Below are positions 7,065-64,000 of a stretch of 64,000 nucleotides of DNA, piece by piece; position 1 is the first letter of the stretch; the number at the start of each line of letters is the position of its first letter. Under the pieces are notes generated by a model. It did not search any database and was not told where the DNA came from. It saw only the letters and a list, made by a program, of their open reading frames with translations. Where the stretch lies: NCBI GenBank assembly GCA_001725415.1, contig MEGH01000006.1, positions 87,022 through 151,021 of the forward strand, in the 5' to 3' direction. A program made the translations under genes and the position numbers. This DNA comes from Pseudonocardia sp. SCN 73-27. GTDB taxonomy: Bacteria > Actinomycetota > Actinomycetes > Mycobacteriales > Pseudonocardiaceae.

Positions 7065-7076
7065 GGGCGCTCGGGG

Positions 7077-7655: not shown

Positions 7656-7661
7656 CCCGGC

Positions 7662-7667
7662 AGGCTA
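7662..7667 (-). promoter_or_regulatory. -10 box for the tetR at 7077-7655
   Basis: TAGCCT on the minus strand, 6 bases before ATG 7655; leaderless spacing. Confidence 0.55.
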
Positions 7668-7792
7668 CGCAACGCCGTTTCGCGCCGCTCGTCCTGGCCA
7701 TGGACCCCACCCGTGACCTGCACGTAACGTGCAGGCGTCGGGCTGCGAGATCCGGCGGGAGCCGCACGACGGCTGCCGCGATCGGGGGAGCG

Positions 7793-8539
7793 GTGGAGGT
7801 CAGGAACAGGGTGCGGCTCGTGCTCGGGCTCATCGCGGTCCTGGTGGTGGGGATCCTGCTGCCCGCGGACCGCTCCGGCGACGAGCCCGCCGAGGTCCGG
7901 ATCGCCGCGTCCAAGCCGGTCGTGGCGCTGCGCATCATGCCGCTGGGGGCGTCGAGCACCGAGGGGATCGGCAGCCCGTCGACAGCCGGCTACCGCGGCC
8001 CGCTGTACCGGATGCTGCAGCGCGACGCGATCAACGTCGACTACGTGGGCTCGCTGCGGTCGGGTCCGTCGTGGCTGGCCGACAAGGACAACGAGGGCCA
8101 CTCCGGCTGGACGCTGGCCACGCTCGCCCCGAAGATCGACGGTTGGGTCCGTGCCGCGCGCCCCGACGTCGTGATCCTGCACGCGGGCACCAACGACCTC
8201 GGCCAGGGCGTGCCCGGCGACGTCACCGCGCGTCGCCTCGACGACGTCCTCGGCAAGGTCCTCGCGGCCGCCCCGCGGGCGCACGTCGTCGTCGCCGGGG
8301 TGTGGGCACCGCTGCCCAAGGCCCGCGCCGCGCGGGACGAGCTGGCCGCGCTGACGCCGGTGATCGTCGGCAAGTACCGGATGCAGGGCTACTCGGTCGA
8401 CTTCCTCGACACCTCGACGCTGCTCGCCCCGGGCCAGCTCTACGACGGCCTGCACCCCAACACCTCGGGCTACGTGAAGATCGCCTCGATGTTCGATGGC
8501 GAGATCCGGCAGTGGCTCGACACCCGCGCGGTGGCCTGA
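7793..8539 (+). CDS. Exported SGNH/GDSL-family hydrolase
   Basis: 248 residues. An N-terminal hydrophobic helix (VRLVLGLIAVLVVGILLPA) acts as signal or anchor. The SGNH blocks are present: IMPLGASST (Ser), GHSGWT (Gly), HAGTNDLG (Asn) and DGLHPN (Asp-His). Such enzymes are esterases or acyl hydrolases of lipids or cell-wall sugars, acting outside the membrane. GTG 7793 is chosen because GGGGGA lies just before it and it begins immediately ahead of the signal helix; the ATG at 7700 would add an Arg-rich non-family stretch. Confidence 0.87.
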   Translation: MEVRNRVRLVLGLIAVLVVGILLPADRSGDEPAEVRIAASKPVVALRIMPLGASSTEGIGSPSTAGYRGPLYRMLQRDAINVDYVGSLRSGPSWLADKDNEGHSGWTLATLAPKIDGWVRAARPDVVILHAGTNDLGQGVPGDVTARRLDDVLGKVLAAAPRAHVVVAGVWAPLPKARAARDELAALTPVIVGKYRMQGYSVDFLDTSTLLAPGQLYDGLHPNTSGYVKIASMFDGEIRQWLDTRAVA

Positions 8540-50176: not shown

Positions 50177-50595
50177 GGGAGACGACTCTGCCAGCCGCGG
50201 CACCCGTCCGGACCGGCAGGGCGCCGTGCGGTCCACGGACCCCGGACGGTCGGACCGCCGGGACCGGGAACTCTGTCGGTTCCTGGGCATGTTCGGCCGG
50301 CCGCTGCTCGGCGCGACGACCGCGCCGGTACCGGGCCTCTCGGTGCGCAACCACGCTCGCGTCGTCCACGAGGCGCCTGCACAGCGGCCGCTGTCGCCGC
50401 CGGCTGGACGGCCCCGTGGCCGGGGGGCAGCGGCGCCCACCGATATCCCCTGTGCGGGGGGTGCGGTGCGGTGCGGATTGCGACGACCATGTCGGCGCTG
50501 CCTCGTCGTGCGTCGACGTCGTGCGAACACTGACGTTCGCGACCCTGGCTGCAGCTCCGCGTTGTCGGTCCAGGGGCAGAAGTGCGCTCAAACAG

Positions 50596-50755: not shown

Positions 50756-52168
50756 GTGTCAAACAAGACCTACCAGGCCGGCGTGAAGGACTACGCCGCG
50801 ACTTACTGGACGCCGGACTACGAGCCGTTGGACACGGATCTGCTCGCGGTGTTCAAGGTCGTTGCGCAGGAGGGCGTGCCTCGCGAGGAGGCCGCGGCGG
50901 CGGTGGCGGCGGAGTCCTCCACCGGAACGTGGACCACGGTGTGGACCGACCTTCTGACCGACCTGGACTACTACAAGGGTCGGTGCTACCGGATCGAGAA
51001 CGTTCCGGGCGACGACACCGCGTTCTTCGCGTTCATCGCCTACCCGATCGACCTCTTCGAGGAGGGGTCGGTCGTCAACGTGCTGACCTCGCTGGTCGGC
51101 AACGTGTTCGGGTTCAAGGCGATCCGCAGTCTGCGGCTCGAGGACATCCGGTTCCCCCTGGCCTTCGTGAAGACCTGTGGTGGTCCGCCGCAGGGAATCC
51201 AGGTCGAGCGCGACCGGCTGAACAAGTACGGGCGTCCGCTGCTGGGCTGCACGATCAAGCCCAAGCTCGGTCTGTCGGCCAAGAACTACGGCCGGGCGGT
51301 CTACGAGTGCCTGCGTGGTGGTCTCGACTTCACCAAGGACGACGAGAACATCAACAGCCAGCCGTTCATGCGCTGGAACCACCGGTTCGAGTTCGTGATG
51401 GAGGCCGTTCACAAGGCCACCGAGGAGACCGGTGAGATCAAGGGCCACTACCTGAACGTCACGGCGTCGACGCCGGAAGAGATGTACAAGCGGGCCGAGT
51501 TCGCGAAGTCGCTCGGCGCGCCGATCATCATGCACGACTTCTTCACCGCAGGCTTCACGGCCAACACCGGCCTGGCGAACTGGTGCCGCGAGAACGGCAT
51601 GCTGCTGCACATCCACCGGGCGATGCACGCGGTCGTCGACCGCAACCCGATGCACGGCATCCACTTCCGCGTCCTCACCAAGTGCCTGCGGCTGTCCGGC
51701 GGCGACCACTTCCACTCGGGCACCGTCGTCGGCAAGCTCGAGGGTGACCGGCAGGCCACGCTGGGGTGGATCGACCTCATGCGTGAGTCGTTCGTGCCCG
51801 AGAACCGCAAGCGCGGCATCTTCTTCGACCAGGACTGGGGCTCGATGCCGGGCACGATGCCGGTCGCCTCGGGCGGTATCCACGTCTGGCACATGCCCGC
51901 CCTCGTCGCGATCTTCGGCGACGACTCCTGCCTGCAGTTCGGTGGCGGCACGCTGGGTCACCCGTGGGGCAACGCGGCGGGAGCGCACGCCAACCGGGTC
52001 GCGCTCGAGGCCTGCGTCGAGGCGCGCAACCAGGGCCGTGACCTGGAGCGGGAGGGTCGGGAGATCCTCACCGAGGCCGCCCGGCACAGCCCGGAGCTGG
52101 CCATCGCTCTGGACACCTGGAAGGAAATCAAGTTCGAGTTCGACACGGTGGACAAGCTCGACGCCTGA
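50756..52168 (+). CDS. cbbL: RuBisCO large subunit, form IA
   Basis: 470 residues, normal length. Fixes CO2 on ribulose-1,5-bisphosphate in the Calvin cycle, inside the carboxysome. Residues: [38 protein letters not shown] (carbamylated Lys and metal acids), and [18 protein letters not shown], all intact. The N-terminus ([17 protein letters not shown]) is of the form IA carboxysomal type. GTG 50756 has GAGGAGA 5 bases before it. The first gene of the operon; the candidate CbbR boxes are upstream. Confidence 0.98.
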
Positions 52169-52218
52169 TGTGACCCGGCTGCCAGACCCGGCCCTCGAGC
52201 CCCCACAGAGAGATGGAC

Positions 52219-52551
52219 ATGACCATGGAAGCCTACGGGCCCACACGGACGCGCGTCGAAACGTTCTCCTACCTCCCGCCGATGACCCCCGACCGCCTGC
52301 GTGCGCAGATCACCTACGCGATCCAGCAGGGATGGAACCCGGCGGTCGAGCACACCGAGCCCGAGAAGGCCGGCTCGAACTTCTGGTACCTCTGGAAGCT
52401 GCCGCTGTTCGGTGAGAAGTCGGTGGACCGGGTCCTGAGCGAACTCGAGGCGTGCCACCGGGCGAACCCCGGTCACCTCGTGCGCCTGATCGCTTACGAC
52501 AACTTCACGCAGTCGCAGGGCACGGCGTTCGTCGTCTACGGGGCTCGCTGA
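52219..52551 (+). CDS. cbbS: RuBisCO small subunit
   Basis: 110 residues from ATG 52219. Caps the octamer of large subunits. Family signatures: [37 protein letters not shown], and [19 protein letters not shown]. Three in-frame ATGs (52213, 52219, 52225) are possible; 52219 has the best spacing from the weak AGAGAG ribosome binding site. Located 50 bases after cbbL. Confidence 0.97.
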
Positions 52552-52554
52552 CCC

Positions 52555-54819
52555 ATGGGCATGTACGCGGTGCAGACCGCAGACCCCGAGGAGTTGGCCG
52601 CCGTGAGCGGTGCGGCATCCGGTGGCCGCGAGGCATCCAGGGCGCGGCGTCGTGCGTTGTCGGCGGGTCGTGCCGCCTTGGGGCGGGCGCGCACCGGCGT
52701 ACAGCAGGCCCAGGTGTCCTCGCCCCGCTCGGCACCGGCCGGGCCGGGTCCGGCAGCCGGTGGCCGCACGTCGGCCAAGGCGCGGCGGCATGTCGTGTCG
52801 TCGGGTCGTTCCGCGACGCGGCACCACCCGTTGTCGGCCGGTTCGGCGCCGATTCCGGCCGGCTCGGATGCGGCAGCCGGTGGTTCCACGTCGGCCAAGG
52901 CGCAGCGTCATGTGGTGTCCTCGGTTCGCCCCGCGGCGCGACCGGAGCGCACCCCCGTGCCCTCGCCCACCTCTGGGCCGGTTCCGGCCCGGTCGGCTGC
53001 GGTGACGGACGCGCACGTGGGCCGGGCCTCGTCGATCCAGCGGCGTCGTCAGCTGTCGCAGGGCAAGCGTGGTCTGAACGGTGCCGTCGCGGCGTCGGTG
53101 GCTGCGCCTGGTGCGGGTGCCTCGGCGTCCGGTGCGGTGGCTGACGCGCACCAGGGCCGGGCCTCGTCGGTCCAGCGGCGCCGTCAGCTGTCGCAGGGCA
53201 AGCGTGGCCTGGTCGGTGGCGTCGTGGCGCCGGCGGCCGCACCCGCGGTCGTCGCGCCGGTCCCGGCGGCGACGGACGCGGTGGCCGACGCGCATCAGGG
53301 TCGGCTGTCGTCGATGCAGCGGCGCAAGCAGCTGGCGGAGGGCAAGCGTGGCCTGGCCGGTGCCGTCGGCCGGGTCCGTCCGCAGCGTGAGGGCCAGGTC
53401 GTCAACCCGCCGAAGGTGCTGGAGTCGCCGACCCAGGGCGGGCTCCACGTGACCGGCGTGCGGATCGGTCCGGGGGTCCGGGTCACCGGGGACGAGCCCG
53501 GGCGTGGGATGCCGGTGTCGGGATCGCAGTACGTCCCCGACGGCTCTGCGGAGTCGGTGTCCGGCAAGCCGAAGGTCGGCCTGGTGCGCACGGCGAAGGG
53601 CCTGGTCGTCTCGGGTACGGCGGTGCGCAGCCAGGTGGCGATCACCGGCGACGAGTTCGGCGAGCACATCGCCATCACCGGGGAGGCGGACCAGAAGCTC
53701 GACGACGACCTCACGCCGCGCAGCGGATCCGCGCAGACCTCGGGCCAGTTCCCGCGGAAGTCGCAGTACCCGCGGAAGGTGAACGCGCGACGTCCGTCGG
53801 AGGCGAGCCCTCGTTCCGGCTCGGCGTTGGAGACCTCCGACGGTGGTCGGGATGTGACCGGTACAGCAGTGGGGCGCAGCGGGCGCGTCACCGGTAACGA
53901 GGCCGGCGAATCACGTGCGCTGACCGGCGATCAGTACCAGCGGCCGTCGACTGCCACCGAGTGGTCCGGGACCGACGGCGTCACCGCCCCGGCCGTCGGT
54001 GACGGCTCGCGGCACGATCCTGTGACCGGCGGGAAGGTGACGGAGTCGCTGACGTGGCGTGGGCAGCGTGTGACCGGCCCCGACGTCGAGCACCGCGCGA
54101 ACGTCACCGGGGACGAGCCCGGGGTGTGCCGGCCCGTGACCGGGACCCCCTACCAGGGTCCGGGAACCACTTTCGGCTGGTGCGAGACCGCAGAGGGCGA
54201 CGCGGCCGGGCAACGTCTGGACGCGCGGGTCGGAGGTGTGGCCGTGACCGGCAACGTGCCGATGCACGCCGAGGCCGTGACCGGGACCGAGCGTGGTCGT
54301 TCGCAAGCGGTGACCGGATCGGCATACCACCACGACATGCGGCCCGCCGAGTCGGTGCCGGGGCCGTGGTCGGCCGACTCCTCGTTCCCGGTCGCGTTGG
54401 CCCGTCGCGGCGGGTTCGGCCATGTCGGCGACGGGCCGAGCGTGTCGGAGCAGGGCCGCATCACCGGTTCGTTCGCGGTCGCCCAGGGCAAGGTCACCGG
54501 AAACAACGAGTTCCTCCACCGGACCCGGCGGCGTCGCGAGGCCGAGCCGCTGCCGATCACCGGCGAGGGAAGCACCGAAGGTCGCGAGGTGACCGGGTCG
54601 GCGTGGACCGCGAACAGCCGGGTCACCGGTACTGCGGGCTACATCTCGGCCGGGCGCAACCCGAGCGAGGCAGCCGGCGGCTCTCACGCCTGGGCCGGCG
54701 CGACCCGCTTCCGAGACCAGGCCGCGCCGTCGGACCGGCGTCAGAACGTCACCGGGCAGTCGGGGCAGACCAACAACACGACCAGCAGGATCACGCTCTC
54801 CGGCGGTGCGTCGGCATGA
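52555..54819 (+). CDS. csoS2: Carboxysome assembly protein CsoS2
   Basis: 754 residues, intrinsically disordered scaffold joining RuBisCO to the shell. N-terminal region (to ~275) has six basic repeats that would bind RuBisCO, the last three nearly identical (RRRQLSQGKRGL). Middle region (~295-590) has about five repeats built from VTG-x(n)-VTGDE-x(n)-VTGxxY, which bind shell hexamers. The C-terminal part (~610-754) is conserved and ends ITLSGGASA, resembling the end-peptide of known CsoS2. Only a couple of Cys are in the middle repeats. Starts 4 bases after cbbS. Odd: no csoSCA follows. Confidence 0.95.
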   Translation: MGMYAVQTADPEELAAVSGAASGGREASRARRRALSAGRAALGRARTGVQQAQVSSPRSAPAGPGPAAGGRTSAKARRHVVSSGRSATRHHPLSAGSAPIPAGSDAAAGGSTSAKAQRHVVSSVRPAARPERTPVPSPTSGPVPARSAAVTDAHVGRASSIQRRRQLSQGKRGLNGAVAASVAAPGAGASASGAVADAHQGRASSVQRRRQLSQGKRGLVGGVVAPAAAPAVVAPVPAATDAVADAHQGRLSSMQRRKQLAEGKRGLAGAVGRVRPQREGQVVNPPKVLESPTQGGLHVTGVRIGPGVRVTGDEPGRGMPVSGSQYVPDGSAESVSGKPKVGLVRTAKGLVVSGTAVRSQVAITGDEFGEHIAITGEADQKLDDDLTPRSGSAQTSGQFPRKSQYPRKVNARRPSEASPRSGSALETSDGGRDVTGTAVGRSGRVTGNEAGESRALTGDQYQRPSTATEWSGTDGVTAPAVGDGSRHDPVTGGKVTESLTWRGQRVTGPDVEHRANVTGDEPGVCRPVTGTPYQGPGTTFGWCETAEGDAAGQRLDARVGGVAVTGNVPMHAEAVTGTERGRSQAVTGSAYHHDMRPAESVPGPWSADSSFPVALARRGGFGHVGDGPSVSEQGRITGSFAVAQGKVTGNNEFLHRTRRRREAEPLPITGEGSTEGREVTGSAWTANSRVTGTAGYISAGRNPSEAAGGSHAWAGATRFRDQAAPSDRRQNVTGQSGQTNNTTSRITLSGGASA

Positions 54820-54880
54820 CGTCCGTCGAAGCGGCGACCGGCACCCCGATCTGCGGACGACCGAAGGAGGCAGTGCACGG

Positions 54881-55183
54881 ATGAAGGTCTTCAAGGTCGA
54901 AGGGACGCTCGTCGCGACCGCCCGCATCGGCAACCTCGACCGGCACCGGCTGCTCGTGGTGCAGGAGCGCGGGACGAGCAGCAAGCAGGTCGCGGTCGAT
55001 CCGGTGGGGTGCAAGCCGGGCGACTGGGTGATCGCGGTCGGGAGCTCGGCGGCGCGTGATGCCGCGGGGAGCAAGGAGTACCCCAGCGACCTGACGATCG
55101 TCGGCATCATCGACTACTGGGACGACGAACATCCCTCCGGCCAGGCGTCGGCCCCAGGGCCGGGCGGCGGAGCCAAGGGATGA
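54881..55183 (+). CDS. csoS4A: Carboxysome pentamer shell protein CsoS4A
   Basis: 100 residues, CcmL/EutN-type pentamer that caps shell vertices. MKVFKVEGTLVATARIGNLDRHRLLVVQE is the N-terminal family pattern, and DPVGCKPGDWVIAVGSSAARDAAGSKEYPSD the pore/central region. Start ATG 54881 has GAAGGAGG 10 bases ahead. In canonical loci csoSCA lies between csoS2 and this gene; here only 61 bases separate them. C-terminal extension is Gly/Pro rich. Confidence 0.95.
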   Translation: MKVFKVEGTLVATARIGNLDRHRLLVVQERGTSSKQVAVDPVGCKPGDWVIAVGSSAARDAAGSKEYPSDLTIVGIIDYWDDEHPSGQASAPGPGGGAKG

Positions 55184-55440
55184 AGATCCAACGGGTCGCC
55201 CGCGACCTCGTCTCCACCGAGCAGGTCACGGGACTGGGCTTCATGTCGTTGCAGGTGGTCGAGGACGACCGCGGCAATGTCGAGGTGGCCACCGACCCGG
55301 TCGGAACCAAGCCCGGAGATTTCGTCTTCACCATCTCGACGTCGGCGGCGCGATACGCAGCCGGCGATGCAACGGTCACGACCGATCTGACGATCGGCGG
55401 AATCATCGACCACTGGACCGAGGAGCGTTGGCGCTCCTGA
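55180..55440 (+). CDS. csoS4B: Carboxysome pentamer shell protein CsoS4B
   Basis: 86 residues, second vertex pentamer. MKIQRVARDLVSTEQVTGLGFMSLQVVED and DPVGTKPGDFVFTISTSAARYAAGD follow the family. Start ATG overlaps the csoS4A stop by 4 bases, so the two pentamers are coupled. Confidence 0.95.
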   Translation: MKIQRVARDLVSTEQVTGLGFMSLQVVEDDRGNVEVATDPVGTKPGDFVFTISTSAARYAAGDATVTTDLTIGGIIDHWTEERWRS

Positions 55441-55510
55441 GTATCGGCTCCACTCCGCACGACCAGCACCACAATTCACACCTCGAATGTCCCTAGGAAG
55501 GAAAGCAGCA

Positions 55511-55843
55511 ATGACTCGAAGCGACGAGAGGTTCGGCATCGCACTCGGGATGATCGAGACCCGAGGGCTCGTGCCGGCCATCGAGGCGGCCGACGCCATG
55601 ACCAAGGCCTCCGAGGTTCGGCTCGTCGGGCGCCAGTTCGTCGGTGGCGGGTACGTCACCGTCCTGGTCCGCGGCGAGACCGGCGCGGTCAACGCTGCGG
55701 TCCGCGCCGGCGCCGACGCGTGCGAGCGGGTTGGTGACGGCCTCGCTGCCGCGCACATCATCGCTCGCCCGCACAGCGAGGTGGAGCAGATCCTGCCCGC
55801 CGGCGAGAACGACCCCGCCGCCGGTCAGACCCCGGCGCGGTAA
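55511..55843 (+). CDS. csoS1: Carboxysome hexamer shell protein CsoS1
   Basis: 110 residues, BMC domain. The pore-loop region FVGGGYVTVLVRGETGAV and the RAGADACERVGDGL segment are almost the same as in proteobacterial CsoS1A/C, indicating horizontal origin. Main facet protein of the shell. ATG 55511 has GGAAGGA at 9 bases. It is the only hexamer gene in the locus; usual clusters have two or three plus csoS1D. Confidence 0.95.
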   Translation: MTRSDERFGIALGMIETRGLVPAIEAADAMTKASEVRLVGRQFVGGGYVTVLVRGETGAVNAAVRAGADACERVGDGLAAAHIIARPHSEVEQILPAGENDPAAGQTPAR

Positions 55844-55908
55844 GTCTCGCCGCCCGGTGCCGAACCAGCCCAGCGCTCCCGTCGGCTGAGTAGAGGCTCC
55901 TATTGCGC

Positions 55909-55940
55909 CCGGCGCCAGCCGAATCATCGGCTGGCGCCGG
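55909..55940. terminator. Strong hairpin after csoS1
   Basis: CCGGCGCCAGCCG (55909-55921) pairs perfectly with CGGCTGGCGCCGG (55928-55940), 6-base loop AATCAT. Between csoS1 and acRAF; may act as partial terminator or protect the shell mRNA, setting stoichiometry. No T-tract. Confidence 0.65.
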
Positions 55941-55970
55941 CGACCATTTCACCCAACAGAGAGGGACCTG

Positions 55971-56246
55971 ATGACGACGGAGTCCCCGGTGCCCGCGGGC
56001 TGGACAGAGTCCGAACGGCCATCGTTGCTGCACCGCCGTTTCGAGTTCGACGACTACGACGAGACGCGTCGGTTTCTCGCGTTTCTCGAGAGCCTGTCGA
56101 AGGAGTTGGGGCTGTACCCGGACCTCAGTTTTGCCCGCACCCATGTCCGGGTGACGGTGCACGGGCCCGACGGCGGGGCCGTCGGTGCGGAGGAGCGGGA
56201 GTTCGCCGCCCGCGCCGGTGCCTTCTCCTCGAAAGAGGTCGTCTGA
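55971..56246 (+). CDS. Carboxysomal RuBisCO assembly factor acRAF (PCD-like)
   Basis: 91 residues. Pterin-4a-carbinolamine dehydratase-like fold: RRFEFDDYDETRRFLAFLESLSKELGLYPDLSFARTHVRVTVHG. acRAF members of alpha-carboxysome operons assist form IA RuBisCO folding and lack dehydratase activity. The PCD active motif (EKRNHHP-type) is absent here, in agreement. Follows GAGAGGGA ribosome binding site. Confidence 0.9.
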   Translation: MTTESPVPAGWTESERPSLLHRRFEFDDYDETRRFLAFLESLSKELGLYPDLSFARTHVRVTVHGPDGGAVGAEEREFAARAGAFSSKEVV

Positions 56247-56247
56247 G

Positions 56248-56505
56248 ATGCCACCCACTGCGCGTTCGGCGGGAGGTACCGCCGGCCGGCCGAGACGACG
56301 CCGAACCACTGCCGCGGCCGCCGACACCACGTCGACCGGTTCGACGCCGGCAGACGACACCGCGCCGACGGACTCCGCCTCCGACGAGGCCGTAGCAGAG
56401 GCCGCGGCGCCTGAAGCTGTGGCACCCGAGGCCGAGGTGACCGAGCACGTCGCGTCGCCACGTCGTTCCGCGGCGGCACAGCACGAGCGCGTGTGGCCGG
56501 ACTGA
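56248..56505 (+). CDS. Unknown disordered protein of the carboxysome operon
   Basis: 85 residues. Starts one base after the acRAF stop and ends inside the next gene. The N-terminus is basic (RPRRRRTT), the middle is Ala/Glu/Thr/Asp-rich and acidic (SDEAVAEAAAPEAVAPEAEV), and the C-terminus is basic again (SPRRSAAAQHERVWPD). No domain is recognised; composition suggests an intrinsically disordered linker or RuBisCO/shell-binding peptide. RBS-like AGAGG precedes it. Could be spurious, but gene spacing supports it. Confidence 0.55.
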   Translation: MPPTARSAGGTAGRPRRRRTTAAAADTTSTGSTPADDTAPTDSASDEAVAEAAAPEAVAPEAEVTEHVASPRRSAAAQHERVWPD

Positions 56506-57497
56506 CGCGGCCCGGTCGTCGTCGCGCCCTCGTCGGGCGTCCCGAGATCGGCGTCGCGGTCGGGGTTCTCCGCTCTTCCGACGGCCGGGTCCTGGTCGCG
56601 GAACGCCGGCCCGGCGTGGACGGCGCCGGCTACTGGGAACTGCCCGGCGGGAAGATCGATGCCGGGGAGACGCCGGCTCAGGCCGCGGCGCGAGAGCTCC
56701 GGGAGGAGCTCGGCGTCCGTGTCGACGAGCTCGAACCCTGGCGGACCTACACGCACGACTTCTCGACCGGGCGGGTGCGCCTCCACTTCTTCCGCGTGCG
56801 CTCCTGGAACGGCGAACCGACCGGTCGCGAGGGGCAGCGGCTGGCCTGGGTGGATCCGCAGCACCCTGCCGTGGGTCCGCTACTGCCCAGCAACGAACCG
56901 GCCATGACAGCCCTGGGCCTGCCCGAGCTGATCGCCGTCGCCCGCGTGGATCGCGGCCCCGGCCGCCCCGGGAACCTCGTGGATCGGGTCCGCGTCCTCG
57001 CGACCCAGGGTGTGCGGCTCCTGATCGTGCGCGCGCCTGATCTCACTCCGCCCCAGCGGGTACAGCTCGGTCGCCGGCTGATGGGGGTGAGCCGAGGTAC
57101 GGGACTGAGGCTCGTGCTCTCGGGAACGCCCCTGGAGGCGCTGCAAGCCGGGGTCGACGGGGTGCACTCCTGCGGGACGACCCTCTCGGCTGCGACGCAG
57201 CGTCCCCGCACCACGCTGTGGGTGGTCTCGGCCCACGACTCCCGCGACCTCGCTCGGGCCGGGGCGCTGGGTGCCGACGCGGCGCTGGTCTCACCGGTGC
57301 TGCCGACTCCTGCACAGCCTGCTCGGGAGCCGCTGGGCTGGGACGGTCTGCGAAGGCTCGTCGCGGGCAGCCCGTTGCAGGTCTTCGCTCGAGGTGGCCT
57401 GGCGCCCGACGATCTCGCGTCCGCGACCGCGGCGGGTGCTGCGGGAGTGGCGGTCGACATCGGGCGCCTCTCGATCCCGGCAGCCGCACGCACCTGA
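56493..57497 (+). CDS. Nudix hydrolase fused to thiamine-phosphate-synthase-like domain
   Basis: 334 residues. Nudix domain at about 18-135: GYWELPGGKIDAGETPAQAAARELREELGV is the Nudix box. The C-terminal half (about 165-330) follows the ThiE/TenI barrel: RLLIVRAPDLTPPQRVQLGR, GVHSCGTTL, and PLQVFARGGLAPDDLASATAAGAAGVAVD. Similar fusions exist in proteobacteria (MutT-ThiE). Its role in this operon is unknown; cleaning of nucleotide or sugar phosphates is possible. GTG 56493 overlaps the preceding frame by 13 bases. Confidence 0.88.
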   Translation: MAGLTRPGRRRALVGRPEIGVAVGVLRSSDGRVLVAERRPGVDGAGYWELPGGKIDAGETPAQAAARELREELGVRVDELEPWRTYTHDFSTGRVRLHFFRVRSWNGEPTGREGQRLAWVDPQHPAVGPLLPSNEPAMTALGLPELIAVARVDRGPGRPGNLVDRVRVLATQGVRLLIVRAPDLTPPQRVQLGRRLMGVSRGTGLRLVLSGTPLEALQAGVDGVHSCGTTLSAATQRPRTTLWVVSAHDSRDLARAGALGADAALVSPVLPTPAQPAREPLGWDGLRRLVAGSPLQVFARGGLAPDDLASATAAGAAGVAVDIGRLSIPAAART

Positions 57498-57589: not shown

Positions 57590-58483
57590 ATGAACCAGCC
57601 GGTCACCTGGTCACGGATGCGGACGTTCCTGGCCGTGGCGGACGCGGGCAGCGTCAGGGCGGCAGCCGCGCAGCTGCACGTGTCCGAGCCGGCGGTCTCG
57701 GCCGCGATCACGAGCATGGAGCGACAGCTCCACACCCAGCTCACCGCGAAGTCCGGACGTGGGATCGTCATGACCGAAGCGGGCCGGGTGTACGTCGACT
57801 ACTGCCGCCAGATCCTGGGCCTGCTCGAGGAGTCGGCGATGGCGGTGCGGCGGGCCGGGCTGGGCCAGCTGCGTCTCGGAGCGGTCGGCACCGCGAGCGA
57901 GTACCTGGTCCCGACCCTGCTGGGCCGCTTCCGCGAGCATTACCCGGACGTGCAGGTGTCGCTCGCCGTCAGTCCCCGCGACGACCTCTTCACCGCCATC
58001 CGTAGCCACGAACTGGACGTCGTGTTCGCCGGGCGCCCGCCACGCGGCTCCGGACTGTTGATCGGAGCCACCCGCGAGAACCGGCTGATCGTCGTCGCCG
58101 CGCCCGGCCACGAGGGTGCCCCGTTCCAGTCCACCTGGTTGCTGCGTGGACCGGGTTCGGGAACGCTCGAGACCACGTTGTCCTTGTTCGACCAGGACAA
58201 CGCCAACCCCCACACCCTGACCCTGGGGTCGTTGGGTGCGGTCATCGCCGGCGCCAAGGCGGGTCTCGGCCTGACCCTCGTGCACGCCGACGCGGTCGCC
58301 GACGACCTCGCCGAGGGGCGGCTCGTCCAGGTCCGCGTTCCGCGGACACCCATCGCCCGACCCTGGCACCTGGTGACCGGATCGAGGCCGACCGCTGTGG
58401 CGGCGCTGTTCATCTCCAGCTGCACGAGCGACGATCTCGAAGGTGCCGCGTTCACCCTCCAGCGGCGGACAGCGGGCCACTGA
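57590..58483 (+). CDS. cbbR: LysR-family regulator, probable CbbR
   Basis: 297 residues. Winged HTH at residues 1-65 (MRTFLAVADAGSVRAAAAQLHVSEPAVSAAITSMERQL), then the LysR substrate-binding domain (about 95-290) with GAVGTASEYLVPTLL typical of CbbR. It is at the end of the cbb/cso operon on the same strand, not divergent upstream of cbbL as usual. Probable activator of cbbL using the TCAC/GTGA boxes at 50596-50641. Confidence 0.88.
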   Translation: MNQPVTWSRMRTFLAVADAGSVRAAAAQLHVSEPAVSAAITSMERQLHTQLTAKSGRGIVMTEAGRVYVDYCRQILGLLEESAMAVRRAGLGQLRLGAVGTASEYLVPTLLGRFREHYPDVQVSLAVSPRDDLFTAIRSHELDVVFAGRPPRGSGLLIGATRENRLIVVAAPGHEGAPFQSTWLLRGPGSGTLETTLSLFDQDNANPHTLTLGSLGAVIAGAKAGLGLTLVHADAVADDLAEGRLVQVRVPRTPIARPWHLVTGSRPTAVAALFISSCTSDDLEGAAFTLQRRTAGH

Positions 58484-58562: not shown

Positions 58563-59219
58563 GTGACGACCGTCCTGCTGGCCGAGGACGACACGGCGAT
58601 CGCCGAGCCGCTGTCCCGGGCCTTGCAACGCGAGGGATACCACGTCGATGTCGCCGGTGACGGCACGACGGCGTTGGAACATGTCCGTGAGGGCGGGGTC
58701 GACCTGCTCGTCCTCGACCTCGGGCTGCCGGGGATGGACGGTCTGGAGGTCTGCAGGCGGCTGCGTCTCGACTTCCCCGACCTGCCGGTCCTGATGCTCA
58801 CCGCCCGCACCGACGAGGTCGACTTCGTCGTGGGGCTCGACGCGGGGGCGGACGACTACGTCGGCAAGCCCTTCCGGCTTGCCGAGCTGCTGGCCCGCGT
58901 CCGGGCGCTGCTGCGGCGGCTCACCCCGGAGACCGTCGAGGTCGGCGGGGTGCGGATGGAGCTGTCGGGGCGGCGGGTGCTGGTCGACGGTGTCGAGGTG
59001 GGCCTGGCCAACAAGGAGTTCGAGCTGCTGCGGGTGCTGTTGCTGCGCGCCGGGCAGGTCGTCACCCGCGAGGAGATCCTGCGCGAGGTGTGGAACGACC
59101 CCGACCTGAAGACGTCGAAGACGCTCGACATGCACATGTCGTGGCTGCGCCGGAAGATCGGCGGGGAGCAGCGCATCGCGACGGTGCGTGGCGTCGGCTT
59201 CCGCTTCAACCACGATTAA
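58563..59219 (+). CDS. OmpR-type response regulator
   Basis: 218 residues. Receiver domain with the phospho-acceptor Asp52 (LVLDLGLPGMDG), acidic pair ED9-10 and Lys in DDYVGKPF; C-terminal winged-helix DNA-binding domain (LANKEFELLRVLLLRAGQVVTREEILREVW). The C-terminus appears normal (GVGFRFNHD). Expected sensor kinase directly downstream is absent; a phage-type repressor in the opposite orientation overlaps its last 14 bases. GTG 58563 with leaderless spacing. Confidence 0.93.
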   Translation: MTTVLLAEDDTAIAEPLSRALQREGYHVDVAGDGTTALEHVREGGVDLLVLDLGLPGMDGLEVCRRLRLDFPDLPVLMLTARTDEVDFVVGLDAGADDYVGKPFRLAELLARVRALLRRLTPETVEVGGVRMELSGRRVLVDGVEVGLANKEFELLRVLLLRAGQVVTREEILREVWNDPDLKTSKTLDMHMSWLRRKIGGEQRIATVRGVGFRFNHD

Positions 59220-59499
59220 CTCGGAAAGCCTCCGCGTCTGTCGGGGCAGGGGTGTCGACGCCGAGCAGCCACGAGGCCGGCACTCCTGAGAGCAGCTCGA
59301 CCCTGCGGGCGATAGCGATCAGGTCGCGCGGCTGCGTGCGGCCGGACTCCCAGGCGGCGTAGGCCGCCTTCGTGACGCCGAGCTTCTCGGCGAGTTCGGC
59401 CTGGTGCAGTTCGAGGACGTCGAAGCGGACCTTGCGCATGCGGTCGGCGAAGGTCCACCTGGGGACGACCGGCTTGGTCCCGGCCGCTGGCGTGGTCAT
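59206..59499 (-). CDS. Phage-type XRE repressor
   Basis: 97 residues. HTH_XRE: ELHQAELAEKLGVTKAAYAAWESGRTQPRDLIAIARRVELLSGV, with the usual Trp/Leu tail (PASWLLGVDTPA). Divergent from the HTH gene at 59613, in the lambda-like layout of a lysogeny switch. ATG 59499 lies 6 bases after TACACT; longer upstream starts overlap the switch region. Ends inside the last codons of the response regulator. Confidence 0.87.
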   Translation of the reverse strand: MTTPAAGTKPVVPRWTFADRMRKVRFDVLELHQAELAEKLGVTKAAYAAWESGRTQPRDLIAIARRVELLSGVPASWLLGVDTPAPTDAEAFRVNRG

Positions 59500-59505
59500 G
59501 CGACG

Positions 59506-59511
59506 AGTGTA
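59506..59511 (-). promoter_or_regulatory. -10 box for the repressor
   Basis: TACACT on the minus strand, 6 bases before ATG 59499; overlapped by the half-site at 59508-59515. Confidence 0.6.
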
Positions 59512-59603
59512 ACCACGTCTCCCACAAACGCACCAGAGTGCACTACGCCGCACCCGGGAGACACGCGGCACGTATTTGTGTGTTGAGAGTAAGTCTGGTT
59601 ACA
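59508..59603. promoter_or_regulatory. Divergent switch with paired half-sites
   Basis: TGTAACCA (59508-59515) and its exact reverse complement TGGTTACA (59596-59603) each overlap one of the two divergent -10 boxes. A further TGGTTAC is at 59647-59653 within the next gene. They are candidate binding sites of the repressor or HTH protein. Confidence 0.55.
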
Positions 59604-59607
59604 TACT
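59602..59607 (+). promoter_or_regulatory. -10 box for the early operon
   Basis: CATACT (or TACATA two bases upstream), 5 bases before ATG 59613; TTGAGA and TTGTGT stretches upstream may serve as -35. Confidence 0.4.
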
Positions 59608-59612
59608 GCCCC

Positions 59613-59822
59613 ATGCCCAGTAACCCCGCTTACAGCGACGAGGACCTGGTTACGGTCGCCGTCGCAGCCGAGCTCCTGGGGGTCCACCGGAACACGCTCC
59701 GCCGCTGGGTCGACGCCGGCGAACTCCCCGAGCGCCGCACCCCCGGCAACCACCGCCTGTTCCGAGTCGGTGACCTCCGCAAGTTGAACGTCCCCACCAT
59801 CACGAAGCCGCAGGCCTCGTGA
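59613..59822 (+). CDS. MerR/excisionase-type HTH protein
   Basis: 69 residues. The HTH_17-type domain is AVAAELLGVHRNTLRRWVDAGELPERRTPGNHRLFRVGDL, common to excisionases (Xis) and Cro-like early regulators of actinobacterial mobile elements. First gene of the rightward early operon, divergent from the repressor. ATG 59613 follows the -10 by 5 bases; longer frame upstream crosses the promoter. Confidence 0.85.
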   Translation: MPSNPAYSDEDLVTVAVAAELLGVHRNTLRRWVDAGELPERRTPGNHRLFRVGDLRKLNVPTITKPQAS

Positions 59823-60124
59823 CCGGCGACAACAAGAGCTGGAACCAGCCGCCCCAGCTCCTCACACCCGTCGTCGAGAACACCCAAGCCGCCCGCGTCG
59901 CCCGACGCCGCGCCTTCCGCACGATGTTCGACTACGCCCCCGAGGCCCGCCGCTACGTGCCGCAGCCCTACAGGAACCGACTGACTCCCGAGCAGGCCGT
60001 CGACCACGACGACCACGCCGAGACGGGGGAGTGGGGCGACGACCTAACCGACTCGCTGCTCGACGTCATCGAGCGCCACTCCAACGGCGAACGGGCCGGC
60101 GCTGCACACGCCGACCCGTCCTGA
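59819..60124 (+). CDS. Phage-type hypothetical protein
   Basis: 101 residues. GTG overlaps the preceding stop by 4 bases. No domain recognised. Basic middle (RRRAFRTMFDYAPEARRYVPQPYRNRL) and an acidic C-terminal half (VDHDDHAETGEWGDDLTDSLLDVIE). Only the operon position supports it. Confidence 0.6.
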   Translation: MTGDNKSWNQPPQLLTPVVENTQAARVARRRAFRTMFDYAPEARRYVPQPYRNRLTPEQAVDHDDHAETGEWGDDLTDSLLDVIERHSNGERAGAAHADPS

Positions 60125-60163
60125 CCCGCATCCATCACCACTGATCACGAGGACAACGCACTC

Positions 60164-60337
60164 ATGACCACCAAGAGCATCGCACACCCGATGCCCATCC
60201 CGACGCCTCCGCGCGGGCTCACGCTGACCCCGATGCCCCCGGCCGCGGTCCGCCGGCCGGGCCGTCACCGCCTCGTCCGCCGCACACGGTGGCAGCGCAC
60301 CGTCGACGCCGTCACCCGCTGGATGGTGTCCTCGTGA
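60164..60337 (+). CDS. Small basic hypothetical protein
   Basis: 57 residues from ATG 60164; Pro-rich first half (MPIPTPPRGLTLTPMPP), then Arg-rich (RRPGRHRLVRRTRWQR). Preceded by GAGGA at 10 bases and its stop overlaps the next GTG by 4 bases. Unknown. Confidence 0.5.
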   Translation: MTTKSIAHPMPIPTPPRGLTLTPMPPAAVRRPGRHRLVRRTRWQRTVDAVTRWMVSS

Positions 60338-60909
60338 AGGCGCTGGCCGACTTCCTCCGCGGGTTCGCCGACGGGATCGACCGCGCCGCCGGCCGCGACG
60401 TCGTCGACCAGGCCGCCGTCGAGGCGGCCGAGCTGCTCGACGACCCGGCCGAGGTGGTCGTCACCGGGCCCGACCTGACCGACAACCAGGCGTTGCAGGT
60501 CGCGATCCACTTCCAGGAGACCCGGCGCGACCTTCGCCGCTTCCAGCAGATGTACGGGAAGGCGTCGGCGACGATCGGGCACCTCCGCGGCCGCAACGCG
60601 TTCCTGGCCGAGGAGCTGCTCGCCGCGCGGACCACGATCCGCCTCGCGCGGGCCGAGCTGGACCTCGCCGCGGGGGAGTCGCTCTCCGACGCGATCGTTC
60701 AGACGCGCGACCGGGCCCGCACGCTGGAGGCGAAGCTCGCCGAGAAGAACGGCACCGGCCGCCCGACCGTGGCGCGCGAGGACCTCGCGAACGAGCTGCT
60801 GCGCGCCTACACCGGCAACGAGGAGTCCAACGCCGGCGTGGCGATCGGCTGGGGCCCGGTCGCCGACCGCGCCGTCACCGTCCTCCTCGGCACCTCGGAT
60901 GCCACGTGA
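60334..60909 (+). CDS. Phage-type hypothetical protein, partly coiled coil
   Basis: 191 residues. Helical heptads in the middle and later parts (FQETRRDLRRFQQMYGKASATIGHL and LAARTTIRLARAELDLAAGESLSDAIVQTRDRARTLEAKLAEKN) suggest a coiled coil. No catalytic motif. GTG overlaps the previous stop and its stop overlaps the next GTG. Unknown role. Confidence 0.65.
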   Translation: MKALADFLRGFADGIDRAAGRDVVDQAAVEAAELLDDPAEVVVTGPDLTDNQALQVAIHFQETRRDLRRFQQMYGKASATIGHLRGRNAFLAEELLAARTTIRLARAELDLAAGESLSDAIVQTRDRARTLEAKLAEKNGTGRPTVAREDLANELLRAYTGNEESNAGVAIGWGPVADRAVTVLLGTSDAT

Positions 60910-61118
60910 CCCGCGCAGCCGTTCTCGCCGCCGTCGCGACCAGCGCGCTCCTGAGGCCCCTCCCCAACCCCATCGAGGCTCCTGCGCCTGGTGCGGCAGC
61001 GATGGCCTGTGGCGCGTGCGGCGAGGTCGTCGACCTCCACCAACTCCGGTGGCGCAACCGGCGCTCGCTGCTCCTCGGCTGCCAGTTCTGCACCCCGAAG
61101 GAGGACCCGTGCCCTTGA
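60906..61118 (+). CDS. Small zinc-ribbon-like protein
   Basis: 70 residues. Two CxxC pairs (ACGAC and GCQFC) 26 residues apart suggest a zinc ribbon. GTG overlaps the previous stop by 4 bases. Its 3' end overlaps the next gene by 10 bases. Function unknown; a DNA- or protein-binding role is possible. Confidence 0.6.
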   Translation: MTRAAVLAAVATSALLRPLPNPIEAPAPGAAAMACGACGEVVDLHQLRWRNRRSLLLGCQFCTPKEDPCP

Positions 61119-61519
61119 CCGCCGACTACCCCGGCCTCTACACCGACGTCGCCAGCTCCGCCCACGCACTGCTCCAGTCCCACTCCTGGATCACCCGCGA
61201 CCCCGACACCCGCGAGCTCCACCTCATCGACCTCGACGCGATGACCCCCAGCCACCGCGCCCACCTCCTCGACTGGTTGCGCCGCAACGCCCACGTCATG
61301 CGCGGCCACGTCCACCGATCCATCAACCAGTCCCAGCGGTGGGGCGCGATCACCTGGGTCGAACGCGCCGAGCTGATTCGCGACCTCGAGGTCCACCCGC
61401 CCGAGGTGTGGATCGAGGACACGCCCCTCGTCCGCCGCCTCGTCCAGCTCGAACCGCCGGCCGCCCCACGGCGGGAACGGCAGCGCTGGCTCCCCCAACG
61501 CCTCCGGAGGAACCGATGA
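61109..61519 (+). CDS. Phage-type hypothetical protein
   Basis: 136 residues. GTG 61109 has AAGGAGGA 4 bases before it. Segments SHRAHLLDWLRRNAHVMRGHVHRS and WIEDTPLVRRLVQLEPP; C-terminus Arg-rich. No known domain recognised. Confidence 0.65.
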   Translation: MPLTADYPGLYTDVASSAHALLQSHSWITRDPDTRELHLIDLDAMTPSHRAHLLDWLRRNAHVMRGHVHRSINQSQRWGAITWVERAELIRDLEVHPPEVWIEDTPLVRRLVQLEPPAAPRRERQRWLPQRLRRNR

Positions 61520-61737
61520 ACCTCACCTACCCCGGCGACGTCCGGCACGTCGCCGTCGGCCGCGTCATGGGCCCCGACCTCCACGGCGGATTCGTCGTCG
61601 CCACCGCCGCCGAGTACGACCCGGGCACCGACAAGACCCGCGTCGCGTTCCGCCCCCTGCAGCCCGCCGAGCGCGAGCACGTCGTCGAGGACACCGACGG
61701 CGCTCCGTGGCTCGGACAGATCGGAGTCGCCTGGTGA
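61516..61737 (+). CDS. Small hypothetical protein
   Basis: 73 residues. ATG overlaps the previous stop by 4 bases and its stop overlaps the exonuclease start. Sequence (TYPGDVRHVAVGRVMGPDLHGGFVVATAAEYDPGTDKTRVAF) suggests a small beta fold. Unknown. Confidence 0.55.
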   Translation: MNLTYPGDVRHVAVGRVMGPDLHGGFVVATAAEYDPGTDKTRVAFRPLQPAEREHVVEDTDGAPWLGQIGVAW

Positions 61738-62645
61738 ACACCTACGTCGGGCCCATCCGCCGCCGCCAGTACGGCCGCAGCGGCCACGGGTACATCGACG
61801 CCAACGGACTCAAGGTCCCCGGCGTCACCACCATCCTCAAGGCGCTCCCCAAGGACGCCCTCATCAACTGGGCCGCCAACGCCACCGCCGACGCCGCCGT
61901 CGACCGCTGGGACGAACTCGCCGCGCTCAAGCCCGCCGCCCGCCTCGCCACCCTCAAGAAGGCCCGCTACGAGGACCGCGACACCGCCGCCAACCGCGGC
62001 ACCGAGGTCCACAACGCCGCGCAGCGCTACCTCCAGGGCGAGGAGATCGAACTCCCCGACGACATCGCCGGCCACGTCGAGTCCTACATCGCGTTCGTCG
62101 AGGACTGGCAGCCCGAACCGCTCCTCGTCGAAGCCGTCGTCATGTCCCACAAGTACGGCTACGCCGGCACCCTCGACCTCGGCGTCACCTTCGACGACCC
62201 CGCGATCATCGCCCGCCTCGCCGAGCAGATGCGCATGCCCGAGCTCGTCGACCTCGACCGGCCCGTCGTCGGCATCGGCGACATCAAGACCAGCCGGTCC
62301 GGCATCTTCCCCGAGACCGCCTGGCAGGTGTGCGCCTACCGCTACGCCGACGTCTACGTCGACGCCCAGGGCGCCGAGCAGCCCATGCCCGCGTTCGACT
62401 TCGCGTTCGCGCTCCACGTCCGCGGCGACGACTACGGCCTGCGGCCCCTCGTCGCCGGGCCCGAGCAGCTCCGCGAGTTCCTCTACATCCGCGAGGTCCA
62501 CCGCGCCGTCGAGGAGACCTCCAAGGCCTACGTCGGCGAGGAACTCACCCCCGGGCGCCGGCTCAAGCGCCGCCGCCTCGAGGTCGTCGAGGAGCCCGCC
62601 CCCACGACCGCGCGCCGCCGCGCGAAGGAAGGGGCACCGGCGTGA
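61734..62645 (+). CDS. Phage-type PD-(D/E)XK exonuclease (RecB/Cas4-like)
   Basis: 303 residues. Nuclease motifs: GTEVHNAAQRYLQGE (His/Glu helix), VEAVVMSHKYGYAGTLDLGV (Glu, then Asp), and GIGDIKTSRSGIFPETAWQVCAYRYA, with the Asp-x-Lys core. Such enzymes work with a RecT/Bet annealing protein in phage recombination; a RecT-like gene follows two genes on. Basic C-terminal tail. GTG overlaps the preceding stop by 4 bases. Confidence 0.87.
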   Translation: MNTYVGPIRRRQYGRSGHGYIDANGLKVPGVTTILKALPKDALINWAANATADAAVDRWDELAALKPAARLATLKKARYEDRDTAANRGTEVHNAAQRYLQGEEIELPDDIAGHVESYIAFVEDWQPEPLLVEAVVMSHKYGYAGTLDLGVTFDDPAIIARLAEQMRMPELVDLDRPVVGIGDIKTSRSGIFPETAWQVCAYRYADVYVDAQGAEQPMPAFDFAFALHVRGDDYGLRPLVAGPEQLREFLYIREVHRAVEETSKAYVGEELTPGRRLKRRRLEVVEEPAPTTARRRAKEGAPA

Positions 62646-63070
62646 AGGGCCCGAAGCCGCGGCCGGCGATCGACCGCCTGCTGGCGAAGGCCGTCGAGGA
62701 GGACGGCTGCTGGCTGGTCAAGAGCGGCCTCGCCCCCAACGGCTACTCGCAGGTCTCGGTCGGCTCTGCTCGGAAGCTGATCGGCCACCGGGTCGCCTAC
62801 GAGTTCTTCATCAGCGACATCCCGCCCGGCCTGGAGATCGACCACATCTGCCTGCGACGGAACTGCGTCAACCCGTGGCACATGGACCCGGTCACCCACG
62901 CCGAGAACATGCGCCGCCAGCACGAGGCGCTCTGGCACGGCCGCAAGACGTGCGCGCGGGGTCACCAGCTCGCCGACGCGGGCGTCATCACGAAACAGAG
63001 CGGCGCCCTGACCGTGCGCATCTGTGCCGCCTGCTACCGCGAGAACAACCGGAAGGACCGCGCAGCATGA
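62642..63070 (+). CDS. HNH endonuclease-like protein
   Basis: 142 residues. HNH_3-type: GYSQVSVGSARKLIGHRVAYEFF, then LEIDHICLRRNCVNPWHMDPVTHAENMRR (DHxC...C-N-P-x-H) and a further CARGH...CAACY zinc pair. GTG overlaps the previous stop. Homing-type or phage-associated nuclease inserted between the exonuclease and RecT genes; may be mobile by itself. Confidence 0.88.
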   Translation: MKGPKPRPAIDRLLAKAVEEDGCWLVKSGLAPNGYSQVSVGSARKLIGHRVAYEFFISDIPPGLEIDHICLRRNCVNPWHMDPVTHAENMRRQHEALWHGRKTCARGHQLADAGVITKQSGALTVRICAACYRENNRKDRAA

Positions 63071-64000
63071 GCGCCGAGATCGAGCAGTACCGCGGCGGGA
63101 CCGTCACCCAGATCACGGGCGGCACGCCCGTCCCCGCGCTCCCGCCGGCCAACGACGTCGACGGCTGGATCCGCGTCGTCGCCGACATCAGCAAGCTCGC
63201 AGCCCAGGTCGCGCACACCGACTTCGTGCCGCGCGCGATGCAGGGCAAGCCGGCGGCCGTCGCCGCCGCGATGCTCGCTGGTCGCGAGATGGGCATTGGC
63301 CCGATGACGTCGCTCCAGAACATCCATGTGATCAGCGGGAAGCCGGGGCAGTCGGCGCTGCTGATGCGCGCGATGGTGCTGGCCAAGGGCCATCAGATCG
63401 AGTACGTGGAGACGACCGACTCGCGCGCCGTGCTGCGTGGGCGGCGCGCGAACGAGGAGGAGTGGACCGAGGTCGAGTTCACCGCCGAGCAGGCGCGGAA
63501 GGCCAAGATCGACCTCGGTGGATACCCTGCCGACAAGCTCGTGGCTCGCGCGTCGGCGCGGTTGTGCCGCAGGAAGTTCGCCGACGTCATCTCCGGCATG
63601 GCCTACACGCTGGAGGAGCTCCAGGACGGCGACGCCCAGCTGATCGAGGCCGGCGAGACACACGCTCCTCCGGGCGACGACACGACGCCCGAGCAGCCGC
63701 CCAGGACCGCGCAGCGCGCCACACGCCGCAAGGCGGCACCGAAGACCCCCGCAGCCGCAGTCGGCGGCGGCACGGCCGCGGGAACGGGCGCGGCGGCCCC
63801 GAGTTCGGCGGGGCCGCCGCTGCCCGGCGAGGACGGCTACGACGCCCCCGGCGACGAGCACGAGGACCGCGACCCGAACCGACCGTCGTCGCCCGAGCAG
63901 AACCGCCTCATGCACGCGATGTTCCGTAAGGCCGAGCTCGGCGGCCAGGACGACCGCGACGACCGGCTGCGCCTCACCGGGCTCCTGCTCAAGCGCCAGC
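63067..64000 (+). CDS. recT: RecT-like single-strand annealing protein, C-terminus outside window
   Basis: 311 codons seen, then the window ends. LAGREMGIGPMTSLQNIHVISGKPGQSALLMRAMVLAKGHQIEYVE and the ARASARLCRRKFADVISGMAYTLEEL region fit the RecT family of actinobacterial phages. A long Pro/Ala linker (about residues 200-265) leads to a second region (PSSPEQNRLMHAMFRKAELGG) that looks like a separate C-terminal domain. Start ATG 63067 overlaps the HNH stop by 4 bases. Pairs with the exonuclease at 61734 in recombination. Confidence 0.85.
   Translation, partial: MSAEIEQYRGGTVTQITGGTPVPALPPANDVDGWIRVVADISKLAAQVAHTDFVPRAMQGKPAAVAAAMLAGREMGIGPMTSLQNIHVISGKPGQSALLMRAMVLAKGHQIEYVETTDSRAVLRGRRANEEEWTEVEFTAEQARKAKIDLGGYPADKLVARASARLCRRKFADVISGMAYTLEELQDGDAQLIEAGETHAPPGDDTTPEQPPRTAQRATRRKAAPKTPAAAVGGGTAAGTGAAAPSSAGPPLPGEDGYDAPGDEHEDRDPNRPSSPEQNRLMHAMFRKAELGGQDDRDDRLRLTGLLLKRQ

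Follow-up and report, generated by a model that had tools for sequence, protein, structure and literature searches.

A csoSCA-less alpha-carboxysome operon in a second Pseudonocardia species

Introduction

Carboxysomes are held to need carbonic anhydrase activity in their lumen in order to function, and a 2022 study of atypical loci ("Just Enough Essential Parts") lists several under "No csoSCA", with Pseudonocardia sp. N23 as the single actinobacterial case (PMC9164163). According to the excerpted text of that paper, to which all our statements about it are limited, no csoSCA lies elsewhere in the N23 genome, carboxysomes have been seen by microscopy in csoSCA-less Thiomicrospira, and the N23 genes are placed among those of alpha- and betaproteobacteria, a position taken to suggest horizontal transfer (PMC9164163). 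Full-text literature on Pseudonocardia with carboxysome and csoS2 yielded nothing beyond this paper. Here we describe a locus of the same type from Pseudonocardia sp. SCN 73-27, found in a stretch of 64,000 nucleotides (hereafter the window; contig MEGH01000006.1, positions 87,022 to 151,021), where a compact alpha-carboxysome operon occupies positions 50756-55843 on the + strand in the order cbbL-cbbS-csoS2-csoS4A-csoS4B-csoS1.

With the window, the published csoSCA-less N23 case gains a second member, whose novelty is modest because the variant has already been published for that sister species. New relative to the excerpted text are the second species, actinobacterial relatives that carry csoSCA, a scar shared by the two Pseudonocardia, and evidence of selection (PMC9164163). 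Our favored reading, to which we assign a probability of roughly 0.5, is that the operon encodes a maintained shell around ribulose-1,5-bisphosphate carboxylase/oxygenase (RuBisCO) that works without a dedicated luminal carbonic anhydrase and receives its CO2 by diffusion.

An Operon Without csoSCA

The gene csoSCA normally sits between csoS2 and csoS4A. In the window 61 base pairs (bp) separate the end of csoS2 (stop at 54819) from the csoS4A ATG (54881), as the first-pass annotation of this DNA had it, and the gap in N23 is 61 bp too. Since the gap has the same length in a separate genome, and since a contig of more than 200 kb (C6) runs through the junction, an assembly gap is ruled out. 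None of the 10 proteins scanned between 50756 and 58483 matched a carbonic anhydrase family in Pfam at E 0.01, in agreement with the earlier statement that the genes up to 57497 include no carbonic anhydrase, and when two CsoSCA proteins were run against the window by tblastn the matches were weak only (best E 0.21); on these searches we reject the idea that the operon hides a diverged carbonic anhydrase. The same annotation had named a csoSCA elsewhere in the genome, co-expressed with the operon, as a finding that would refute it. A csoSCA gene outside the operon was sought with the CsoSCA_C profile at E-values up to 1 in the whole assembly (6,952,598 bp in 99 contigs, completeness 99.99, contamination 4.16), with nothing above cut-off (best E 0.28), and both positive controls were recovered (4.3e-51 in the Nitrobacter plasmid described below, 2.4e-32 in the metagenome-assembled genome that carries locus L019). 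The profile likewise stayed under cut-off in the N23 genome (best E 0.39) and had no match in G063, the genome of locus L020. The locus is thus of the published "No csoSCA" type (PMC9164163), in that cbbL, cbbS, csoS1, csoS2 and csoS4 are present and csoSCA was found neither in the locus nor elsewhere in the genome.

For a wider view, 78 loci were surveyed by tblastn with three CsoSCA proteins, namely one CsoS2 place for each of 72 matching genomes (71 fetched, plus L020) and six others. In six of them (the window, N23, L020, L101, L104 and L114) the stretch examined held no CsoSCA match; L101 is uninformative because its contig breaks off within csoS2, which leaves five csoSCA-less loci of 77. 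The L104 gap (776 bp) holds a long open frame and, by analogy, recalls the degraded csoSCA described for Thiomicrospira in the excerpted text (PMC9164163).

Pfam, and in part NCBIfam, confirmed the gene order first read from the sequence; all six genes lie on the + strand. The carboxysome-type form I RuBisCO large subunit gene cbbL (50756..52168, 470 amino acids, GTG start) matches PF00016 (E 2.7e-139) and PF02788, shares 80% DNA identity with its counterpart in the plasmid-borne carboxysome operon of Nitrobacter hamburgensis, and encodes a protein 96.6% identical to CbbL of N23. The small subunit gene cbbS (52213..52551, 112 amino acids) matches PF00101 (E 4.9e-35). From its grouping with carboxysomal cbbL, the cbbL/cbbS pair adjoining the shell genes is probably of form IA type. 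The scaffold gene csoS2 (52555..54819, 754 amino acids) had been described as otherwise complete, which holds insofar as its product scores well over the PF12288 (CsoS2_M) cut-off (E 2.1e-37; 130 bits against 22) and, in a motif scan, has N-terminal RuBisCO-binding-type motifs ([RK]x5[HKR]R), an M region with repeats, and a C-terminal ITLSGGASA. However, it falls far below both NCBIfam CsoS2 equivalog cut-offs (144.4 against 1100 bits, 115.5 against 850), and by these scores it is a divergent CsoS2; its identity to N23 CsoS2 is 79%. Two pentameric vertex proteins follow: csoS4A (54881..55183, 100 amino acids), which matches PF03319 (EutN/CcmL; E 2.8e-24, scanned as the longer frame 54806-55183) and TIGR02703 (CsoS4; 142.1 bits, cut-off 120), and csoS4B (55180..55440, 86 amino acids), assigned by Pfam (PF03319, E 2.7e-17), the NCBIfam scan having covered csoS4A and not csoS4B. 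The last gene, csoS1 (55487..55843, 118 amino acids), encodes the sole hexameric bacterial microcompartment (BMC) shell protein (PF00936, E 5e-25; NF053791, CsoS1, 185.8 bits, cut-off 166), in which alignment showed the pore motif FVGGGY to be intact.

csoSCA-Bearing Relatives and the Junction Scar

Two actinobacterial loci resemble the window in synteny, down to the McdB-like open reading frame (ORF) and the Nudix-TenI fusion described below, and differ from it in having a full csoSCA between csoS2 and csoS4A. In L019, on a 12,151-bp contig of the metagenome-assembled genome (MAG) 0711_bin10, the gene spans 6644-8188 (514 codons) and its product matches all three CsoSCA Pfam domains above cut-off (CsoSCA_cat E 1.8e-88). 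In L062 (genome G596) it has 528 codons and encodes a protein 66.7% identical to CsoSCA of L019. CbbL identity to the window is 92% for L019 and 93% for L062, the latter from a partial sequence because cbbL is truncated at the end of the contig. csoSCA is also present in a third actinobacterial locus, L061 (G440), which is placed elsewhere on the tree.

That tree was calculated from CbbL, CbbS, CsoS4A, CsoS4B and CsoS1 of 71 of the 78 loci (seven left out for missing columns; 819 columns) in a quick IQ-TREE run with Shimodaira-Hasegawa-like approximate likelihood ratio (SH-aLRT) support. It unites the window with N23 (SH-aLRT 100), then adds L019 (87) and L062 (99), and the sister group of this clade comprises the csoSCA-bearing proteobacterial loci L105 and L140 together with the csoSCA-less L020. 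The csoSCA-less proteobacterial loci appear as separate losses. Within the sampled loci, the nearest relatives of the Pseudonocardia loci on this tree are actinobacterial rather than proteobacterial. Because the pair groups with the syntenic, csoSCA-bearing L019 and L062, the simplest reading is that csoSCA was lost in the Pseudonocardia line, whose locus would derive from a csoSCA-bearing one. CsoS2 matches were found in 2 of 62 Pseudonocardia genomes (the window's own and N23), in 1 of 298 genomes sampled from the order of G062, the genome of L019, the single match being G062, and in 3 of 396 sampled from the phylum (the window's own, G440 and G596).

The junction itself can be compared with its csoSCA-bearing counterparts. 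In these, L019 and L062, the csoSCA start lies on the stop of csoS2 (ATGA) and the csoSCA stop overlaps the start of csoS4A (ATGA). In the window, a putative 22-codon ORF (MTSVEAATGTPICGRPKEAVHG; 54816..54884, + strand), a candidate csoSCA scar, has both of these overlaps, with the stop of csoS2 and with the start of csoS4A, and the N23 ORF is equal in length with both overlaps likewise. The frames end in RPKEAVHG (window stub), RPKEAAHA (N23 stub), RPKEARG (L019 CsoSCA) and RTKEARR (L062 CsoSCA). The junction thus looks like the product of one clean event, the internal in-frame removal of about 490-510 csoSCA codons. Repeats that could explain a deletion were sought within 54780-54900, and none of at least 8 bp was found. 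Under the proposed course of events, these codons would have been lost from an ancestor whose csoSCA lay between csoS2 and csoS4A, most simply by one excision before the two Pseudonocardia split, and the junction would have retained the start over the csoS2 stop and the 3′ end with the csoS4A ribosome-binding site, preserving translation of the vertex proteins downstream. The stub as a functional peptide was also considered and is unsupported, given how often 20 codons are open by chance (71%), an in-frame closure estimated at about 1/3, and conservation that covers the ribosome-binding site.

A gap of similar appearance occurs in the Nitrosomonadaceae MAG SP263 (L020, 11245-11373), where csoSCA is missing and a 42-codon frame has its stop on the csoS4A start. 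This frame ends in NHTESIQ, as against NKSESRQ and NKMESRQ at the CsoSCA ends of its relatives L105 and L140, and the gap resembles a second scar of the same kind as that of Pseudonocardia. The full sequence of events, in which a precise single excision kept translational coupling through the 22-codon stub and left a selection-maintained RuBisCO shell without carbonic anhydrase, and in which the L020 scar would mark a repeated, selected change and not damage, is a tentative proposal to which we would give clearly less than even odds.

Sources of CO2

If the shell lacks CsoSCA, its CO2 might be supplied by other carbonic anhydrases of the cell. The window's own genome encodes two Pro_CA (beta) proteins, for both of which the nearest solved structure is Mycobacterium Rv1284, and two gamma-carbonic anhydrase-like hexapeptide proteins, which were chosen by eye from printed frames among 26 hexapeptide matches, part of which were scanned, and whose nearest NCBIfam models are gamma-carbonic anhydrase, PaaY or CaiE, all below their cut-offs. 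No alpha-type carbonic anhydrase was detected in either of two genomes searched (the control, Synechococcus elongatus, was positive), and the DabA pump was detected in none of three (the window's own, N23 and G062; controls positive in Bacillus subtilis and Haloferax volcanii).

One of these four ordinary enzymes could have been recruited into the lumen, replacing CsoSCA functionally. Precedent exists in beta-carboxysomes, which can use a carbonic anhydrase encoded off-operon (PMC9164163), and the purifying selection on the shell reported below would be consistent with a working CO2-concentrating organelle. We nevertheless regard recruitment as unlikely. The four homologues are compact (162, 194, 176 and 177 amino acids), leaving no room for an added domain; the [RK]x5[HKR]R motif is absent in three of them and occurs in the fourth as a single match near the C-terminus; and their genes lie on contigs C11, C43, C38 and C23, apart from the operon on C6. 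The first-pass annotation had advised looking genome-wide for carbonic anhydrases with a CsoS2-like or RuBisCO-binding peptide: homologues were indeed found, but in none was a targeting extension recognizable. For this reason, and because no DabA was found, we lean slightly toward diffusion in a CO2-rich setting over a recruited enzyme. With diffusion, the ordinary beta and gamma carbonic anhydrases would make or equilibrate CO2 in the cytosol, from where it would pass into the shell; the particle would be useful mainly where CO2 is plentiful, and a second, non-carboxysomal RuBisCO might serve under other conditions.

A separate Calvin-cycle cluster is present on contig C49 of the same genome (L164, 592-11145), with two class I aldolases, phosphoribulokinase (PRK), a large GAF-domain histidine kinase, cbbL, an AAA protein reminiscent of CbbX and, as judged by eye, a small-subunit frame. 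Because of this cluster, the cell is plausibly autotrophic with two RuBisCOs.

Selection and Shell Integrity

Between the window and N23, the ratio of nonsynonymous to synonymous substitution rates (dN/dS; NG86 method) is 0.144 for cbbL, 0.235 for cbbS, 0.360 for csoS2, 0.071 for csoS4A, 0.317 for csoS4B and 0.126 for csoS1. Since all six values are well below 1, the RuBisCO and shell genes are under purifying selection and still selected as proteins. Downstream, the pterin-dehydratase-like gene (0.142) and the LysR gene (0.136) gave low ratios; constraint is looser on the McdB-like ORF (scored as the longer frame 56185-56505) and on the Nudix fusion, at 0.53 each. Path lengths from the actinobacterial node, summed over tree branches, are 0.13 for the window, 0.14 for N23, 0.15 for L019 and 0.12 for L062; they are comparable, therefore the Pseudonocardia pair shows no speed-up.

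In a comparison of eight loci, changes found in Pseudonocardia only numbered 0 in CsoS1, 1 in CsoS4A, 6 in CbbL, 4 in CbbS and 5 in CsoS4B, and private changes in CbbL, CbbS and CsoS4B numbered 5, 6 and 4 in L019 and 5, 2 and 2 in L062, where CbbL is partial; the two kinds of count follow slightly different rules. A shell rendered CO2-permeable by altered residues was considered and rejected on this comparison, in which CsoS1 and CsoS4A are all but unchanged and the counts for CbbL, CbbS and CsoS4B are about as high as those in the csoSCA-bearing relatives. Doubts about the folding or assembly of N23 CsoS1 were founded in the excerpted text on residues E36 and D37 (PMC9164163). In the N23 protein as we read it (L018, 12924-13274), these positions are I36 and G37, numbered from that paper's anchor FVGGGY = 40-45.

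These data bear on whether the operon is a remnant heading for loss, whose particles no longer form or matter. Such an account would suit the occurrence of CsoS2 in just two genomes of the genus, the window's own included, the dN/dS of csoS2 and csoS4B above that of the other core genes (0.36 and 0.32), and the second RuBisCO in the genome. We think it improbable, however, as both species have all six core genes intact and with dN/dS well below 1, no acceleration of the locus is seen relative to those that carry csoSCA, and N23 CsoS1 does not have the doubted residues. A ParA-like gene is not seen beside the McdB-like one, but neither is it seen in the csoSCA-bearing L019 and L062, and its lack is therefore no sign of decay after csoSCA loss. 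The original view of the locus as a natural variant rather than decay is accordingly supported by a gap common to two species, dN/dS of 0.07-0.36, and a tree path that is not lengthened. Because csoSCA-less Thiomicrospira make particles (PMC9164163), the remaining genes would be expected to build a RuBisCO-filled shell as well, if not a classical CO2-concentrating organelle. A shell kept for some other purpose without a CO2-concentrating role, such as shielding RuBisCO from O2 or storage, would also accord with conserved RuBisCO, scaffold and shell where neither a luminal carbonic anhydrase gene nor DabA was found, but it is very improbable, as no sequence feature indicates such a role and CsoS1 has the same residues at its pore as in ordinary carboxysomes.

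Several points count against a diffusion-fed, maintained shell derived by csoSCA loss. No obvious change that would let CO2 leak through the shell proteins emerged from the eight-locus comparison. The csoSCA-bearing L019 genome is also without DabA, therefore the absence of this pump does not track csoSCA loss, and our searches covered the alpha, beta, gamma-like and CsoSCA classes of carbonic anhydrase and, among transporters, DabA alone. The likeness of the stub to CsoSCA amounts to about five codons, which double as the ribosome-binding site of csoS4A, and of sequences drawn at random with the base composition of the window, 71% have 20 codons open by chance. The contig of L019 is from a MAG and just 12 kb long, that of L062 breaks off within cbbL, and the tree comes from a quick run without bootstrap. 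Finally, according to the excerpted text no carboxysome images have been published for N23 (PMC9164163), and none are known for the genus.

Genes Flanking the Operon

Four genes follow csoS1 on the + strand. The first (55971..56246) is pterin-4a-carbinolamine-dehydratase-like (PF01329, 26.7 bits, cut-off 26) and has counterparts at the corresponding position in L019, L062 and L021; it occupies the place of the carboxysomal gene that we take to be the one named acRAF. The next, McdB-like short protein (56248..56505) ends in ERVWPD and has no family match, also when scanned as the longer frame. A C-terminal [IV]WPD is common to the window, N23, L019, L062, L061, L021 and L020, and an invariant C-terminal Trp is given as an McdB feature in the excerpted text of PMC8262871. 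The ORF is flanked by the pterin-dehydratase-like gene on one side and the Nudix fusion on the other in the window, in N23 (L018, 13683-13940), in L019 (9526-9738) and in L062, where it ends in LPVWPD. Inspection by eye, with no ParA search made, revealed no ParA/McdA-like frame beside it in the window, N23, L019 or L062; L061, L020 and the Nitrobacter plasmid differ from these four in this respect. By these features the ORF resembles an orphan type 2 alpha-McdB as described in the excerpted text (PMC8262871). The third gene encodes a PRK08999-like Nudix-TenI/ThiE fusion (56493..57497; PF00293, PF02581; NF006530, 282.1 bits, cut-off 245), which has the corresponding place 3′ of the operon in the window, N23, L019 (9726-10715) and L062. 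The fourth is a CbbR-like LysR regulator (57590..58483; PF03466, PF00126), whose best NCBIfam match, CbbR, reaches 144.7 bits, below the cut-off of 450.

Directly upstream of the carboxysomal cbbL, at 50283-50375, the window has a decayed piece of native-type cbbL (31 codons, 71% identical). N23 has larger decayed cbbL and cbbS pieces at this place (L018, 6843-7808), 58-76% identical to CbbL of the C49 cluster. These decayed native-type pieces suggest an older RuBisCO gene, since lost, next to which the carboxysome operon is located. At the other end, from about 59206 to 64000 and 3′ of a response regulator, the window contains small regulators and nuclease-like ORFs, which by eye only have the look of an integrated mobile element. 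DNA similarity to N23 ends at 59218, though about 4.4 kb more of N23 was compared.

Comparison With Known Systems

A maintained operon without csoSCA tests the rule that luminal carbonic anhydrase is required, and it bears on the minimum number of parts for an engineered carboxysome. The csoSCA-bearing relatives and the scar amount to a before-and-after pair inside one clade, which opens the way to direct experiments, and if the proposal is true, lineages would have lost the enzyme and kept the shell more than once, under selection.

Among described systems, the typical alpha-carboxysome locus on plasmid 1 of Nitrobacter hamburgensis X14 shares the core genes with the window, but it differs in having an annotated csoSCA, two BMC genes, ParA, a CbbQ-family gene, and nearby genes for a DUF2309 protein, which we take to be DabA, and a proton transporter. 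The csoSCA-less proteobacterial loci, namely those of Nitrosospira and Thiomicrospira in the excerpted text (PMC9164163) and L020, L104 and L114 in our survey, are like the window in that csoSCA is missing or degraded and the rest of the operon is kept. Closest is the N23 locus, which agrees with the window in genus, gene order, 61-bp gap and scar ORF, with about 87-88% DNA identity, and which differs in belonging to another species and in carrying larger native-type cbbLS remnants upstream, where the window has its 31-codon piece.

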